Shown here: piece by piece, positions 15,601-23,062 of the stretch
Position numbering within the stretch: the first letter of the stretch is position 1
Layout of the letters: every line of letters starts with the position of its first letter
Assembly (NCBI GenBank): GCA_021234155.1
Contig: JAJEKV010000041.1
Span: 11,666,689-11,730,688, forward strand
From: Isoetes taiwanensis
Lineage: Eukaryota; Streptophyta; Lycopodiopsida; Isoetales; Isoetaceae
Length of the DNA stretch: 64,000 nt
Direction of reading: 5' to 3'
Notes under the pieces: generated by a model
What the model was told of the DNA's origin: nothing
Seen by the model: only the letters and a program-made list of their open reading frames with translations
Databases searched by the model: none
Position numbers and translations under genes: made by a program

Positions 15601-15939
15601 TGAGGATCAACACTCTCATCTTCAGGACATTGCTCACAATGAAGAATTATTGGAAGAAGGATGGTCTACTCCACATATATATTATATTCTTGCAGGCATC
15701 AACCTTGTGGTGTTAGTCCAAAGTTGCAATATATTGACGTTAAAAGGCAAGTAAAACCACAAGTAAGGACATTAGCGCGGCAACACCAGGCACACGTTTA
15801 ATACTAGTTCTGTCTATATTGCCTCCATTGTGGGTCATCATATCGCTTGTATAAATTATAGAAGAATCTTTCCACCTTGACATAGAGAATATATACCATG
15901 GTAAGAATTGAAAGTGAACTAAGTTATTTTCACTTCTTG

Positions 15940-16029
15940 TTACCTGAGGATCTCTCCAGTAAGTTCGTCTCTGCTAGAGCCAACATATCTACCACAAATC
16001 TCGCCGTTCTTGATGAGAACAAAGGTAGG
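15940..16029 (-). pseudogene. CDSP32: Terminal exon fragment of CDSP32 (thioredoxin-like)
   Basis: The minus strand encodes [19 protein letters not shown] followed by an Asp-Glu-Leu and a GEILR end, then TAA at 15940-15942. This is the C-terminus of the plastid drought-induced thioredoxin-like protein CDSP32. It is about 28 codons long and closely matches the end of the larger CDSP32 piece at 19590-19910. A 17-base tract just past the stop (AAGTGAAAATAACTT on the minus strand) also occurs near 19025, so 3'-untranslated sequence seems to be shared. The upstream exons are missing, and a Helitron-like end lies 38 bases away. Confidence 0.75.
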
Positions 16030-16066
16030 AGCCCACCCCACCCCAAAAACTTTTTAACTAAGCAGA

Positions 16067-16100: not shown

Positions 16101-16840
16101 GTCCTGGAATATGTTTTTACTCAATATTTAATGTTCATGTTAAACTTCGACAACACTACATGTTAATGTATGGTCAGCTTCACTCGCGACCGGATTCTAT
16201 AGTTTTCTTGGGGGGCAGTTGCTATTCTGGATTAGAATGATTGAATGAACTGCCGGAATGCACACCGACTTACCTTGACATAAAAGGCATGCAGTTGTCG
16301 AAGTTGAGCGTAGATTGTAACAATGTAATATTATGAAAAAAAGGTGAATCTTAAATTTGAACCCAACAAATTATGGGATGGGATGGTGTGATAAATGGAT
16401 TATTTGTGACTATAGATGTATATATTTGGACGTTGGGTACGCTGGACGTGGGGGAGCACTTTGGATGGACAACACATAGGACATTGCCTTTATGTAGATA
16501 GAATTCTAGGCTTTTTACATGCCTAAACGCCTGTCATGTAAATTGTAAGGCATAATATATATTATCTTTGCTACTGGATATTGAATACAGTGAATGAAAC
16601 ATACTTGCATTAGTGTTCAATTTTCTCATTTGATGAATAATATCAAATTCCAGTGCTAATATACTAAAGACAGTGCTAATATGCTAAAAACAGCTTCTTT
16701 GTTTTTTTTTTCCGTCTTACAGACATGTATTAATATGTGACCTGAGTGAAACATGGGAATTTATAATCTTGTTGAAAATTCGAAGATAAAAGCAAGAAAC
16801 AATATGCTTGCAAATATTTGAGCTACCCTGGGGTACATCT

Positions 16841-17051
16841 GGGCATTTGGTCTAGTGGTAACACACTAGTTCCTTAGCAATGTGGTCTCAAGTTCGAGAC
16901 CGCCCAGAATCGCACTCGGTACTGTTGGGGGTCAAATCCCGACAGATGCAATGTAAGGTGGTTGGGAGGGCCCAACCAAGCAATGTAGTGTGGTGTGTGG
17001 TCACATGTCCAGTTGGATGCTGCCTAGTGGCGTGACATTAAAATTAAAATT
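16841..17051 (+). repeat. tRNA-derived SINE-like element
   Basis: It has a box A match (TGGTCTAGTGG, 16848-16858) and a box B match (AGTTCGAGACC, 16891-16901) at tRNA-like spacing. About 130 bp of unrelated body follows, with an A-rich simple tail (ATTAAAATTAAAATTAC). The head folds poorly as a tRNA, which fits a SINE rather than a gene. Confidence 0.6.
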
Positions 17052-17119
17052 ACTATCTTAAAAAATCTTTGTCACAAATTTGTTCGGTGATCTCTAATAA
17101 CTGGCCAACAATGTTTTGG

Positions 17120-17300
17120 CTTTTTTAGAACCGAGACATTATTTCCAATGCACTACTCAAACCTGCTAATAATGAACCTTCCACATCAACTACACTATTA
17201 AGATTAGACGCCATGGGAAAAATTGCCTTATCATGCATTAACTTCTCATCCTAGTCGGAGCATCTAGAAATGTAGAGTTGTCCATTCACTTCTTGCTTAT
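17120..17300 (-). pseudogene. Unidentified exon-like fragment
   Basis: The minus strand is open for over 50 codons except for one stop and reads, in part, KAIFPMASNLNSVVDVEGSL. Composition is coding-like. It lies beside the duplicated exon-like segments at 17453-18400 and could be part of the same captured gene. The family is not recognised. Confidence 0.35.
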
Positions 17301-17452
17301 CTGAAAAGAGAGAACAAATTAAAATGATTCTCAATCGACTAAAGAGACTGCCATGGTTTGATTAATGCAAAGCACACACATTTTTTAAGGCATGTCAAAA
17401 CTAGAGATGTGTTCCCAACAGTAGAGTATTGACATGAACAACAAATAGTAAC

Positions 17453-18400
17453 CTGCATGGTGCATTCAATCAACTTGGAGATTGACAACTGTATCTGTTG
17501 CCTGAACATTGCCTTGAATGCAGTTGCTACTGAATTTTAATAGATATTCATTCTTCAACATTCTTCTCAGCTCTTCTGCATCCTCTTCCTGCCAGATATA
17601 CATGTTTAACAATAAGATGAAAACTTTTGCATTTTCTGAATCAATATTGCAGTTTATTAAATTTAGACATCACTTCTAAATATCCTTTAATAGTGTCGTC
17701 TCTAGACATCCTTATCATGCCACTCCTAAATCCTTAAAAATCATATAACACTATCAACACTGCTCCAAAAACAGGGGATTATTTTATTTTTATTGATTTC
17801 TAGATCAGATGCTATAGTGAAACTCAAATTAAACTTCAGATTAAACTCGAATAGGGAGACACAGATATGATGTCACATATCCCATTAAAAAGACGTATCT
17901 ACTTTCTCATGCATTTTTCATATATGCATTATCTGTTTCATGAATATAATACTACATGCATGGTGCATTCAATCAACTTGGAGATTGACAACTGTATTTG
18001 TTGCCTGAACATTGACTTGAATGCAGTTGCTACTAAATTTTAATAGGTATTCATTCTTCAACATTCTTCTCAGCTCTTCTGCATCCTCTTCCTGCCAGAG
18101 ATACATGTTTAACAATAAGATGAAAACTTTTGCATTTTCTGAATCAACAATGCAGTTTATTAAATTTAGACGTCACTTCTAAATATCCTTTAATAGTGTC
18201 GTCTCCAGACATCCTTATCATGCCACTCCTTATTCTGCTGATAAATAAAATCCTTAAAAATCATATAACACTATCAACACTGCTCCAAAAACAGGGGATT
18301 ATTTTATTTCTATTGATTTCTAGATCAGATGCTATAGCTAAACTCAAATTAAACTTCAGATTAAACTCGAATAGGGAGACACAGATATGATGTCACATGT
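17453..18400. repeat. Direct duplication (~430 bp, ~503 bp apart) with exon-like segment
   Basis: Sequence from 17453 to 17885 recurs at 17956-18400 with few differences. In each copy the minus strand holds an acceptor-like CTGGCAG followed by an open segment EEDAEELRRMLKNEYLLKF... ending in NLQVD and a stop. It looks like a terminal exon present twice. The parent gene is not identified. The small plus-strand frame at 18130-18390 inside the second copy is not considered a gene. Confidence 0.75.
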
Positions 18401-19050
18401 ATATCACTTGTATCCCATTAAAAAGACACAACAAATTGAACAAAAATGTATCTACTCTCTCATACATTTTTCATATATGCATTATCTATTTCATGAATAT
18501 AATTCAAAAGCTCACTTTGTAAGGCTTACCTGATTGTCCAAATGCAAGGCAAATAAAGCAGATTACTGCAAACACTTAAAAAACAAAAATTGAGTGCGTT
18601 AGAGCATGCATGCAAGAGTCTACGGAATAGTGCATGACATATAGCATGTAAGAATACATATTAATGCCCAAACTTTATGCAATTTCAATACATATCCGAT
18701 GCCCAATCCACATAGAATGCAAAATATTATATGCAGTGCAATGAGGAGCACGAAATTGCAATTCACAAAAAGGTTGGCATGTATAGACAAAAGAGAGTAC
18801 AGAAAATAGAACTTCATAATACCTCAAAGCATAAAAAATATAAAAAAAATATGGAAATTCAATATTCAATAGAATAATTAAGCCTAAGTAGCTGAGCAAC
18901 ATGTGCCAGAGCGAGACATGCAACAGATCTGCAAGACATTGTAGCTGATCAAGTTAGACTAGGAACATTAAAGAGAAGACAAATCATTGTTTAAAACAAA
19001 GCAACATCATTTGTTAACGTAAATAAGTTATTTTCACTTCTCAATGATGT
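18401..19050. other. AT-rich sequence, no gene seen
   Basis: AT-rich, with only short frames. A 17-base tract near 19025 matches sequence just past the CDSP32 stop at 15940, suggesting that 3'-untranslated sequence of the chimeric locus extends to here. Confidence 0.4.
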
Positions 19051-19557
19051 TTTTAGTGGCGAATATCCGCAAAAGACGAATTTTTACGGATTTTCAAAAC
19101 TTTCCTACGAATGCTTACTAGGTTACGTATCATATTTTTTATTAGAATATTTGCCCTGAGTTGATATGAAGTTGTCCTTCCAAGAAGACATTCGCTGTGT
19201 AATTGAATCTAGGACAGCAGCGCATCCGCCCCCAATTCTATAGCTTCTTGCGACTAAAAATCTAGTATTCATCCTTATTTATACAAACACCTGCTTTTGA
19301 GCATCACAAGGTTGCCTGCAAGTTATTCCTTGAGATTTGTGTGACTTGATAGAGTTTTCCTTGTTGCATTTGCAGGTAATGTATTTCATGGGATCAATTT
19401 GGTTTTAGAATTGAATAGATGCCCTAGAAATACTAGATTTCCTCCATAGAGACTTCCATTTTTATGCCTCGAATTCAAACCCATTTCTACTTTGAGCTTC
19501 AAATACGCCAAATGCTGATGAAAAGAGATGGATTATTTGACATATTCGCCATTAAAA
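19051..19557. mobile_element. Small TIR element (MITE-like, ~507 bp)
   Basis: Terminal inverted repeats TTTTAGTGGCGAATAT (19051-19066) and its complement with one mismatch (19542-19557) bound a non-coding insert. It interrupts the 3' end of the CDSP32 piece: the minus-strand coding sequence runs into it just after the GEIL codons. No clear target-site duplication was found. Confidence 0.55.
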
Positions 19558-19589
19558 TTAATCTTATTCTTCTTTACATAAAACAAAGG

Positions 19590-19915
19590 TAGGAACTGAG
19601 GATCTCTCCAACAAGTTTGCGTCTGCTAGAGCCAACATATCTACTACAAATCTCACCGTTCTTGATGAAAACAAAGGTAGGAACTTCCATAATGTTCACA
19701 TTCCTCAAATACTCTATACAATCTTCACTTTCATCCCCATCCAATCTAGCAAAAATGGCAGCATCCTGCATCTTCCTAGCAAGTTTTACCACAATAGGAT
19801 AAACCTTCACACAGGGGCTGCAGTGCTTAAGCCCTACATCTAATACAAGCAATCTGCCATCTCCATTTGCACTCTGGTTCATTAATTCTTCTACACCTGC
19901 CTTACAATGGAGCCT
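19590..19915 (-). pseudogene. CDSP32: C-terminal thioredoxin fold of CDSP32
   Basis: The minus strand encodes the second thioredoxin domain of CDSP32, a stromal disulfide-handling protein induced by drought and oxidative stress. Visible features are LVLDVGLKHCSPCVKVYP, with the redox pair as CSPC where higher plants have CGPC, then GDESEDC, VPTFVFIKNGEICSRYVGSS and GEIL. The preceding segment (GRLHCKAGVEELMNQ) matches the family linker. The normal end is lost: after GEIL the frame runs into unrelated sequence and stops at 19574. It lies in the same frame as the RING-Cys-relay segment upstream, separated by a TAA at 19922-19924. Confidence 0.85.
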
Positions 19916-19921
19916 GCCGGA

Positions 19922-20704
19922 TTAAATTTCCTGTCTCTCCATAATACAACAGCTGCCACACACAAGATCCAGTGGATTATGCCCTCCATTTTCATCTAGA
20001 TTAGCTTGGCAATCGCGTTTTCCTCCAAAGTAAGGCAAATTACACTTGCTGCACATGTAATACTGATACAATTCGAGAGTAGACTTATCTTCAAAATCAC
20101 TTTCTGTTTTCAACCCCTCAATACTCATCCTTTTGGCTGCCTTCATTTCAACCAGCTCCCACAATCCTAAATGCTTCCCCATATATTTTTCAAGATCTTT
20201 GTGAGACATAATCTCTGGGCACTGGGGACATTTTAGATATCCAAAACTGATTTCAGGGCCTGGAAAACCATTGTCGATTTTCTGTTGTGCAGATCAGAGG
20301 GCTTCCACATAACAAATCATACAAAAGTCATCTGTTGATGGAAGGAAAGCTTGGCCATCTGTACCAGACATGCTTGGACGACATTCATCCTCTAGGCAAG
20401 GTAAGCAATGTCTTTCACACCGTACACCTCCACAACGATGGCCACATAACAAAGTCCGTGTGCATGCTCCCCTAAGCCGTTTTCTACATTCCTTTTCAAG
20501 GCAAACCATTATTACTAATTTTTGAGCTGCTAAAAGATCAACCTTCTTTACACACCAACTGGTATCTATGCCCAACTTGTCCATCTCAATTCGCAAATCC
20601 TTTACAGATCTTGTCTTTAAGTTACAGTCCCCTGAAGGTAACAGTCTCTCTTGACAATAAATGCATCTTGTAACATTTCTTTCTTCCTCAATGTCTTGGC
20701 ACAT
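19922..20704 (-). pseudogene. SAP-like plus RING-Cys-relay (MYCBP2-type) E3 ligase fragment
   Basis: One minus-strand frame covers, in order: a CxxC pair (RCIYCQ), a SAP-like helix pair (SVKDLRIEMDKLGIDTSWC), a Cys/His cluster (LLCGHRCGGVRCERHCLPC), a RING start (DDFCMICYVEAL), a later RING half (SFGYLKCPQC) and the start of the tandem-cysteine domain (YYMCSKCNLPYFGGKRDC... then LVCGSC). The last parts closely match the RING-Cys-relay module of animal MYCBP2/PHR ligases, which transfers ubiquitin by cysteine relay. The middle RING residues and the rest of the tandem-cysteine domain, including the downstream relay region, are absent, and a TGA (20294-20296) falls at the gap. It sits inside CDSP32 in the same orientation. 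Confidence 0.75.
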
Positions 20705-21040
20705 TTTTCCATAGCTGGATAAATCTTTTTGCTATTCATGCTATCGCTTGCTCTGTATTCTGCCACAACTAACCTGTTTTTCGCCTCTTTAAGAGTTGCC
20801 TCGAATTCTTCTATTGTAGATATCATCGGAACCGGATCTTTTGCATCTTTTTTCTCGCCTTCTGATTCCTTGCCCTGTGATGCAGCGGCAGAGGCCGAGA
20901 TTGAATTATGTCTGCTGGATTTGTGAGAAAGGGAAAGAAACGGGAGATTTTGAGCTAAATTTGGCACAAATTGTACCGTTTGTGAATGTCCGATGAGGCA
21001 AAGAGGGCGACAAGAGTGCTGCTATGGCCCCCGACGCCAT
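20650..21040 (-). pseudogene. CDSP32: N-terminal part of CDSP32 with probable transit peptide
   Basis: ATG at 21040 opens a Ser/Thr-rich, acid-poor leader (MASGAIAALLSPSLPHRT...) typical of a chloroplast transit peptide. The mature sequence follows in the next frame: VPMISTIEEFEATLKEAKNR, LVVAEYRASDSMNSKKIYPAM, the cysteine-free first thioredoxin fold of CDSP32. The frame change lies before about 20925. It could be a 1-base indel or a very short intron ending at the AATCCAG near 20930. After KKIYPAMEKCAKT the CDSP32 similarity stops and another frame shift leads into the RING-Cys-relay segment. The rest of this fold is missing. Confidence 0.8.
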
Positions 21041-21124
21041 ATCTGCAAGGATTGATCGCCGGTTAGGTGGTTCAAATATGAGCAACCCACAATGCAGGTG
21101 ACCGCCAGTTTACAGGGAACAATG

Positions 21125-21235
21125 GGTTTGGAGCAGTCACTAGCATATCCTAAGTATATTCCAGCGTATACCTAGGATATGCCTCAAACCCACGTAACCG
21201 AGGGTTTGCCCCTAGGGGCAACCCAAAATATTGTT
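21125..21235. repeat. Two adjacent inverted repeats
   Basis: GGGTTTGGAGC (about 21128) pairs with GCCTCAAACCC (about 21184-21194). Inside it CATATCCTAAGTATA pairs with TATACCTAGGATATG. Just beyond, GGGTTTGCCCCTAGGGGCAACCC (about 21205-21230) is a near-perfect palindrome. They lie ~90 bp upstream of the CDSP32 start codon. Role unknown. Confidence 0.6.
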
Positions 21236-21479: not shown

Positions 21480-23062
21480 TTACACCCTGCAGAGATGGCC
21501 ATGAAGAACCGCCAACATCTTCAGACCATGCAAGACAAGAATCAACGCTCTAAAAACAGGCAAATTCTGCCAAGAATGCCGACATGACCTCCAGACTTTG
21601 AAGATCGAAAGGAAGCTCTTCAAGGTGGGATTATGATATGCAAAAACTGCAAAAAGGAAAATTAGCAACACAAGGAGACACAATACCATCAAGCGTCCAT
21701 AATGCAGAACACTTTGGCCAACCAACAAGAACTCCAGATGCTAAAGAGAAAGTATCAAGAAGAAGCTTTGCATTCTGAAGATTGTCCACATCAGCAACAA
21801 GAAAGAGAAATGTGTCATCAGCATACTGATTATAGATTTCCTGTGAACCATCCTCCATACTCAGACCCTGCACTATGCCATCCTGCATGGCCTTAGCAAA
21901 TAGTTGTGAGAGGACCTCAACTACTATTTGAACAACAGTGGAGCTAATGGGCATCCTTGGCGAACTCCCCGCCCAACCGAAAATACAGTAGAGGGTTCCC
22001 CCTGAAAAAGCACTGTAGACCGTGCAGAGATATGGAGCTTCATAACATCACTGGTGAAATGCTGACCAAAGCCCAATGTCAAGAGCCTTTTTTTCAAAAA
22101 TTCCCAATCCACACTGTCATATACCTTGGCAAAATCTAATTTAAGATAGACTATACGTTGACCTTTCAATCTGGCCCAATACATACCCTCATAAGCAGTA
22201 GCAACATTGTCTAAAGTGCTCCTCCTTGGCAAGAATCCAGATTGAGTAGGAGAGATTGATACAGCCAAGATATCACGTACTTTGTCTGCAAGGGCCTTCA
22301 CAAATATTTTATACACGGAAGACAATAATGTGATAGGGCGCCAGTCAGATATTGTTTTTGGCTCTTTGCACTTGGAATAAGAGAAATGCAGCCAGTATTG
22401 AGGATCTTATCCAAACTTCTGAACCTTCGAAGCTCACAGAAAGCATTGTAAAGATCGCAACCTAATCAACCCCAATACTCCTGGAAAAATTCCACTGGGA
22501 GACCATCTAGGTCAGGGCACTTGTCTTTCTTTAAAAGAGAAGCAGTTGAATGTAAGTCATTGATGGTGATGTCCGATTCTAAGTGTGCACGCTGCTCAAC
22601 TGACACTATGGGGTGGACCTTCGACAAGACTGCAGATTGCACATCCTCCTGAAAGGGCAATTGATGTCTGGAAAAAAATGAGGAAAAGTGGTTGTGGAGA
22701 TACTGCTTCAACTAAACCGGATCAGAACACTCTGAACCATCAGGCAAAATAAGGGAGTTAATAGAGGCCATCATATGCCTTCTCTTAGCAGCCCGAAAAA
22801 AGAAGTGAGAGCATCTATCACCAGATCTAAACCATTCTAGTCCAGCCTTTATCCGAGCTTGATTCACAAGAGCTGTGTCAATGGCTTTAATCTCTCTCAA
22901 GATTGCTTTCTCTCTAATACCAGAAGAAGGGGCAAGAGCGCGACATATCTGTAACTTCTGATACAACCCGGTTAATCGGCCTCTAGTCTGGACCACTTGT
23001 GCATGACCCCACTGCTTTGTAAAGGATTTAACAGCCTTAAGAGCAGTAACAACACCAACCAT
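21480..23062 (-). pseudogene. LINE ORF2 reverse transcriptase domain
   Basis: The segment after the endonuclease (from 23062) includes FRSGDRCSHFFFRAAKRR, then KKDKCPDLDGLPVEFFQEYW, QSGFLPRRSTLDNVATAYE, LKLDFAKVYDSVDWEFL (catalytic Asp in the DFAKVYDS position), GVRQGCPLAPLLF and NQYADDTFLF, which carries the YADD active site. Stops and frame changes at about 22711, 22325 and 21950 split it. The thumb and C-terminal region are truncated near 21480. Confidence 0.9.

Follow-up and report, generated by a model that had tools for sequence, protein, structure and literature searches.

A 64,000-nt stretch of the Isoetes taiwanensis genome (hereafter, the window) carries, on its minus strand at 19580-21062, a chimera composed of a CDSP32-like N-terminal part, an E3 ubiquitin ligase fragment, and a CDSP32-like C-terminal part. 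We consider it highly probable that the chimera is a dead product of retroposition, which combined the spliced mRNA of a gene on contig C1096 with CDSP32, and that the intact donor gene on C1096 encodes a predicted RING-Cys-relay ligase. By itself, the window chimera is well explained, ordinary, and of modest interest. What gives it value is that it leads to a plant gene of the RING-Cys-relay type whose front half is unusual, and that it proves the splicing of that gene. The features of the region, in window coordinates, are listed below.

21058..21228, no strand assigned: 171-bp high-copy repeat abutting the CDSP32 5′ UTR, with a poly-T edge common to copies that have differing outer flanks (repeat search and flank alignment).
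20703..21062, minus strand: CDSP32-like N-terminal part with its 5′ UTR, comprising the transit-peptide region and the beginning of thioredoxin domain 1; across 360 nt, it is 91% identical to the locus of an intact ORF on contig C1050 (L010 965-1323).
20703..20710, minus strand: 5′ join of CDSP32 and E3, 2-nt microhomology GG, out of frame (letters read at the join; ORF 20617-21021 crosses the join in the wrong E3 frame).
19949..20710, minus strand: E3 fragment that corresponds to spliced cDNA from the C1096 donor gene, residues about 359-628, and spans three of the donor's introns (blastn against the spliced donor CDS; MYCBP2 match).
20291..20296, minus strand: site where the RING core has lost 48 nt (donor residues 499-514), with an adjoining TGA stop (alignment of the donor, window, and C938 sequences).
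19944..19952, minus strand: 3′ join of E3 and CDSP32, blunt or with a microhomology of at most 4 nt (GTAT, one substitution), out of frame (letters read at the join).
19580..19951, minus strand: CDSP32-like C-terminal part, second thioredoxin domain with the active-site motif CSPC, ending at the start of a tail duplication (PF00085, 8.3e-11; 94% identity over 356 nt to C1050).
19042..19560, no strand assigned: high-copy element of 519 bp that breaks up the chimera's 3′ tail (repeat search).

The pieces were found where the initial annotation had placed them, with two CDSP32-like ends flanking the E3 piece in the same orientation, all on the minus strand. The C-terminal end (19574-19921) matched Thioredoxin (PF00085, E = 8.3e-11, 42.3 bits). 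The N part, too short for Pfam, was weak when taken alone (Thioredoxin at 12.9 bits, with a cut-off of 23.5), and its best solved structure, a thioredoxin with E = 0.054, is a hint at most. Both outer parts match an ORF on C1050 that is intact, encodes 297 aa, and has two stretches of thioredoxin sequence (identities as listed); we take this ORF and the outer chimera parts to be CDSP32-like. The name fits the published description of cotton CDSP32 as a single-exon, 299-aa protein with two thioredoxin domains (PMC7650641). In the window chimera, the first of the two domains is truncated and their common frame is broken. The Cys-rich segment between the outer parts had been assigned to the MYCBP2 RING-Cys-relay module, and the comparison with solved structures bears this out: the 123-aa translation of 19922-20293 matched the MYCBP2 entries 6t7f (E = 3.5e-16) and 5o6c (E = 3.7e-16).

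In a protein search of the whole genome, all 8 candidates were scored and four matched, with two on C1096. The C1096 locus consists of four exons of 1395, 285, 158, and 319 nt, separated by GT-AG introns, and encodes 718 aa. The initial annotation had predicted such a gene, complete and with a SAP-like front, and this search found it. With the donor protein as the query, the whole genome yielded nine matches (10 of 10 candidates scored), namely the four donor exons, the window, three C938 pieces, and one chance match (E = 0.79). The C1096 gene is the only intact donor copy seen, and assembly gaps could hide others.

The blastn alignment of the E3 fragment with the spliced donor CDS is a single run with 739 of 815 positions identical and one 48-nt gap. 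The fragment begins inside donor exon 1, ends in exon 4, and passes all three exon joins without any intron sequence. Because it is collinear with the donor CDS and all three introns are exactly missing, the E3 piece is a spliced cDNA. Read as a fossil cDNA, the chimera shows that the donor gene was transcribed and that its three introns were spliced as modelled. The initial annotation had instead attributed the E3 piece to shuffling of DNA by transposable elements. Capture of gene fragments at the DNA level, by a Helitron or a Pack-type transposon, would agree with the repeats that flank the chimera on both sides and with the many CDSP32 fragments elsewhere (all 50 candidates were scored and 39 matched, the sole complete stop-free copy being that on C1050, itself the query). 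The exact loss of three introns, however, refutes such capture as the origin of the E3 piece, and we regard it as a very improbable account of the chimera. DNA-level copying may have spread the chimera once it was finished.

The spliced fragment was damaged at several positions. The 48-nt deletion, with a 3-nt TGC microhomology, takes five Cys/His of the RING core, and the window chimera is thus left without a complete RING, with 16 RING residues deleted and a TGA stop. As the fragment reaches no further than about donor residue 628, the chimera has neither C661, the second relay cysteine, nor H672, the catalytic histidine. At the 3′ join, the E3 frame runs into the CDSP32 sequence out of frame, reading ...CIMERQEI*. 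The stops lie as first annotated, with TGA ending ORF 20294-20731 and TAA ending 19922-20293. The E3 and C-terminal CDSP32 parts had also been noted to share one frame. This is true of the ORFs, but it is not a sign of fusion, given that both joins are out of frame. The shared frame is a coincidence, because the E3 frame enters CDSP32 out of register and one extra G, which the window copy has and the C938 copy lacks, aligns the frame of the CDSP32 C part with the E3 ORF. With its out-of-frame joins, a RING core broken by the TGA and the loss of 48 nt, and no second relay cysteine, the window chimera is a pseudogene.

Contig C938 carries a second copy of the chimera, with the same joins, the same 48-nt deletion, and the same TGA. 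An assembly artefact was ruled out, since two contigs have the same joins and lesions. The C938 copy is in two parts, separated by ~ 11.4 kb that has, by eye, inverted-repeat ends; this insertion, known from both ends (L006 2351-3850 and L007 1-1417), is probably a DNA transposon. The window, C938, and donor sequences were aligned, and the gapped columns, including 76 nt missing from the C938 copy, were removed, leaving 684 columns. In these, 7 changes relative to the donor were common to both copies, 16 were found only in the window and 16 only in C938, and one column was different in all three sequences. Each copy differed from the donor at 24 columns, and the copies differed from each other at 33. 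The window-only changes were distributed over codon positions 1, 2, and 3 as 4, 5, and 7, with no sign of constraint, and 21 of the 32 private changes of the two copies were C>T or G>A. Because the joins, the deletion, and the TGA are common to the window and C938, the chimera had a single origin and was already broken when it was copied, after which both copies decayed without visible constraint.

The initial annotation had taken the chimera for a probable pseudogene, and the frames, the TGA, and the deletion shared by two copies support that view; it had not described the 48-nt RING-core loss, the C938 copy, or the RING1/IBR-like character of the donor's front half. That the chimera is a functional fusion gene of CDSP32 and E3 is extremely improbable. 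ORFs of 145, 134, 123, and 115 aa do persist, as such a gene would allow, but the window copy has out-of-frame joins and those in C938 are equally long, both copies have the TGA and have lost the RING core, the second relay cysteine is missing, and the window-only changes are spread across codon positions.

We propose the following course of events for the retroposed chimera. The spliced C1096 mRNA would have been reverse transcribed, and an internal 810-nt stretch of the E3 cDNA (762 nt after the 48-nt skip) would have been joined at both ends to CDSP32, replacing ~ 180 nt of the latter. The likeliest route is that the reverse transcriptase of a retrotransposon switched template twice between RNAs of CDSP32 and of the E3 gene. 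What resulted was already out of frame at both joins, with the TGA and without the RING core, before it was copied, and the two copies then decayed. The retroposition step is not directly marked, because the joins, with letters read by eye, have no poly(A) tract and there is no convincing target-site duplication; nor does the E3 fragment contain a 3′ UTR or poly(A).

The microhomologies at the joins are short (2 nt at one; 0-4 nt at the other) and are compatible also with end-joining repair that used cDNA as filler. In such a repair, a CDSP32 copy cut by a double-strand break would have been end-joined with free E3 cDNA, and ~ 180 nt of CDSP32 would have been deleted. The brevity of the join microhomologies, the three-nucleotide TGC at the internal deletion, and the lack of a 3′ UTR or poly(A) in the E3 piece are all in line with repair. 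Nevertheless, repair requires a free internal cDNA fragment, and the deletion inside the E3 piece agrees equally with a jump of the reverse transcriptase. The data agree with both routes; we hold break repair to be possible but rather unlikely, and take template switching to be the likelier.

Between 21228 and 17181, the window has its sequence in common with C938, except for insertions in each. Position 21228 is the poly-T edge of the 171-bp repeat, for which we found at least 45 matches (the best 40 of 3584 candidates were scored). This repeat adjoins the CDSP32 5′ UTR in five copies (window, C938, C477, C1058, and C907), and the outer flanks beyond it were unrelated in the three copies of the five that were aligned (window, C938, and C477). 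The poly-T edge fits the tail of a retroposon read from the plus strand, with the CDSP32 sequence as its antisense body. No convincing target-site duplication was seen at the edges of the unit; the only matches, 8-9 nt long, lay at a distance from where the edges were expected. The region of the 519-bp element gave at least 66 matches for the whole query 16500-19560 (the best 40 of 2394 candidates were scored).

Further features were observed in and around the unit. Window positions 15689-16030 hold a second piece of the CDSP32 C-terminal end with its 3′ flank, ~ 3.5 kb from the chimera, and 17451-17950 and 17954-18503 form an adjacent direct repeat of ~ 500-550 bp, 88% identical. A reverse transcriptase fragment (RVT_1, 2.2e-20), probably of a LINE, lies on the minus strand at 21924-22406, outside the unit common with C938. 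A duplicated C-terminal tail of ~ 90 nt (L012 1854-1943) was present in several CDSP32 copies, e.g., those on C477, C1034, and C938. The copies with the tail duplication may be one lineage, apart from the C1050 ORF.

The catalytic end of the donor protein resembles MYCBP2 closely. Donor residues 482-714 aligned with positions 7-258 of MYCBP2 5o6c with E = 3.1e-54 (phmmer). In this alignment, with residue 4378 taken as the start of the 5o6c chain and with the donor letters checked, C608 takes the place of C4520, C661 of C4572, F662 of F4573, H672 of H4583, and D622 of E4534. Both relay cysteines, the phenylalanine after the second cysteine, and the histidine of the esterification site are thus kept, and the catalytic glutamate is replaced by Asp622. 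The RING piece scored 26.7 bits with zf-RING_2, just under the cut-off of 27.3, and no Pfam family matched the tandem-cysteine (TC) piece. MYCBP2 has been reviewed as passing ubiquitin from E2 to Cys to Cys, with a Cys-His-Glu site that esterifies Thr (PMC9527308), and the C4520S variant was reported as inactive (PMC12664034). Because of the module homology and the conserved relay residues, together with this mechanism and the effect of C4520S, the C1096 product is predicted to be a relay ligase. Its RING would recruit E2~ubiquitin, the ubiquitin would pass to C608 and then to C661, and H672 and D622 would activate a hydroxyl (or other) acceptor. The exchange of Glu for Asp has perhaps altered the choice of acceptor.

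We also weighed whether the donor might be a contaminant or an inactive relative and not a plant relay ligase. Of two neighboring ORFs that were scanned, one gave only a weak plant-type match (Transferase PF02458, 20.5 bits, below the cut-off of 22.7) and the other no match, the position of E4534 is Asp in the donor, and contaminants had to be filtered, as stated in the paper on the assembly (PMC8566536). On the other hand, two contigs, of 13.7 Mb and 2.2 Mb, each have a site at which spliced donor cDNA is fused to a thioredoxin of the plastid type, which means that the donor mRNA was made in the same nucleus, and the retention of both relay cysteines, the phenylalanine, and the histidine argues against inactivity. 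Contamination or inactivity is, in our judgment, unlikely. Among bacterial and archaeal contigs, a search for relatives of the donor RING-TC part gave three pattern matches, none confirmed, and there were none among viral contigs; both are poor places to look for a plant gene.

The front half of the donor has a different character. The pieces used for domain scans were chosen by eye. An IBR-like stretch in front of the RING matched PF01485 with E = 1e-4 and 22.7 bits (cut-off 24.3); a shorter IBR piece matched a prokaryotic RING model (0.0034), IBR_1 (0.013), and IBR (0.63), all below cut-off. The donor was absent from the 33 IBR matches of the genome at E ≤ 0.001 (68 of 68 candidates scored). 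A RING1-like stretch resembles the KIAA0161 and RNF144A structures with E = 0.11 and 0.23, respectively, values that are not significant. No Pfam family matched the RING1-like piece, one of two without a match among seven relevant pieces, the other being the TC piece. As for the SAP-like motif of the initial annotation, a stretch of this kind is present in front of the RING, but a clear SAP domain is not: PF02037 gave E = 0.041 and 14 bits, below the cut-off of 23.9, over profile positions 2-22 of 37, and SAP_RNF34_RFFL gave 12.2 (cut-off 27). In the Pfam scan of the whole protein, SAP reached only 10.2 bits (E = 0.62) and IBR was not listed. The SAP-like stretch with its neighboring stretch had one match among solved structures, with E = 0.38, which is not meaningful. 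The RING1/IBR-like and SAP-like character of the front half is therefore to be read as suggestive.

A review names MYCBP2 as the first relay ligase (PMC9527308), and a human compendium places it among the atypical E3s (PMC13061254). In the open-access literature searched, where the results were mostly off topic, we found no plant relay ligase described. The titles and opening parts of the abstracts of the listed papers containing both 'RING-Cys-relay' and 'plant' (among them PMC11668491, PMC9527308, PMC13008643, and PMC13061254) named no plant relay gene, and the main text of a survey of plant RING proteins does not mention MYCBP2, Highwire, or the SAP domain (PMC6118397). Given a compact relative in plants with both relay cysteines, the relay could be studied outside a giant neuronal protein, and the question would arise of what role ester-linked ubiquitin has in a plant. 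The origin of the module would also shift to before the animal lineage, or else gene transfer would be implied. A bolder proposal, to which we give even chances, is that a lycophyte has a compact ligase combining an RBR-like RING1-IBR front with a MYCBP2-type relay back. On this view, relay ligases would form an ancient eukaryotic class with MYCBP2 as a giant branch in animals, and a dedicated ester-ubiquitin route, acting on Ser/Thr or on non-protein acceptors, would exist in plants.

Several known systems can be compared with the chimera and its donor. Chimeric retrogenes and processed pseudogenes that arise from template switching by reverse transcriptase are a known kind. The window chimera is like them in that a spliced cDNA is joined to another, single-exon gene at short microhomologies; it differs in that both proposed switches fall within a single gene, the joins lack poly(A), and no target-site duplications were found. 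Compared with CDSP32, the chloroplast double thioredoxin, the chimera lacks the middle, contains an out-of-frame insert, and has CSPC instead of CGPC. The front half of the donor has an IBR-like Cys/His pattern and a RING1-like stretch that hint at RBR E3 ligases, with scores below cut-off or not significant, but no RING2/Rcat was found in the donor, and a MYCBP2-type RING and TC stand at its end instead. The PHR (Pam-Highwire-RPM-1) family consists of giant proteins with RCC1 and PHR domains, and MYCBP2 itself is ~ 4,600 aa long; neither RCC1 nor PHR domains were listed for the donor in the whole-protein Pfam scan with E up to 10. The donor agrees with MYCBP2/PHR proteins in having a RING followed by a tandem-cysteine domain, both relay cysteines, the histidine, and the phenylalanine after the second cysteine, whereas it differs from them in its length of 718 aa, in the Asp that takes the place of the catalytic Glu, and in its front half.
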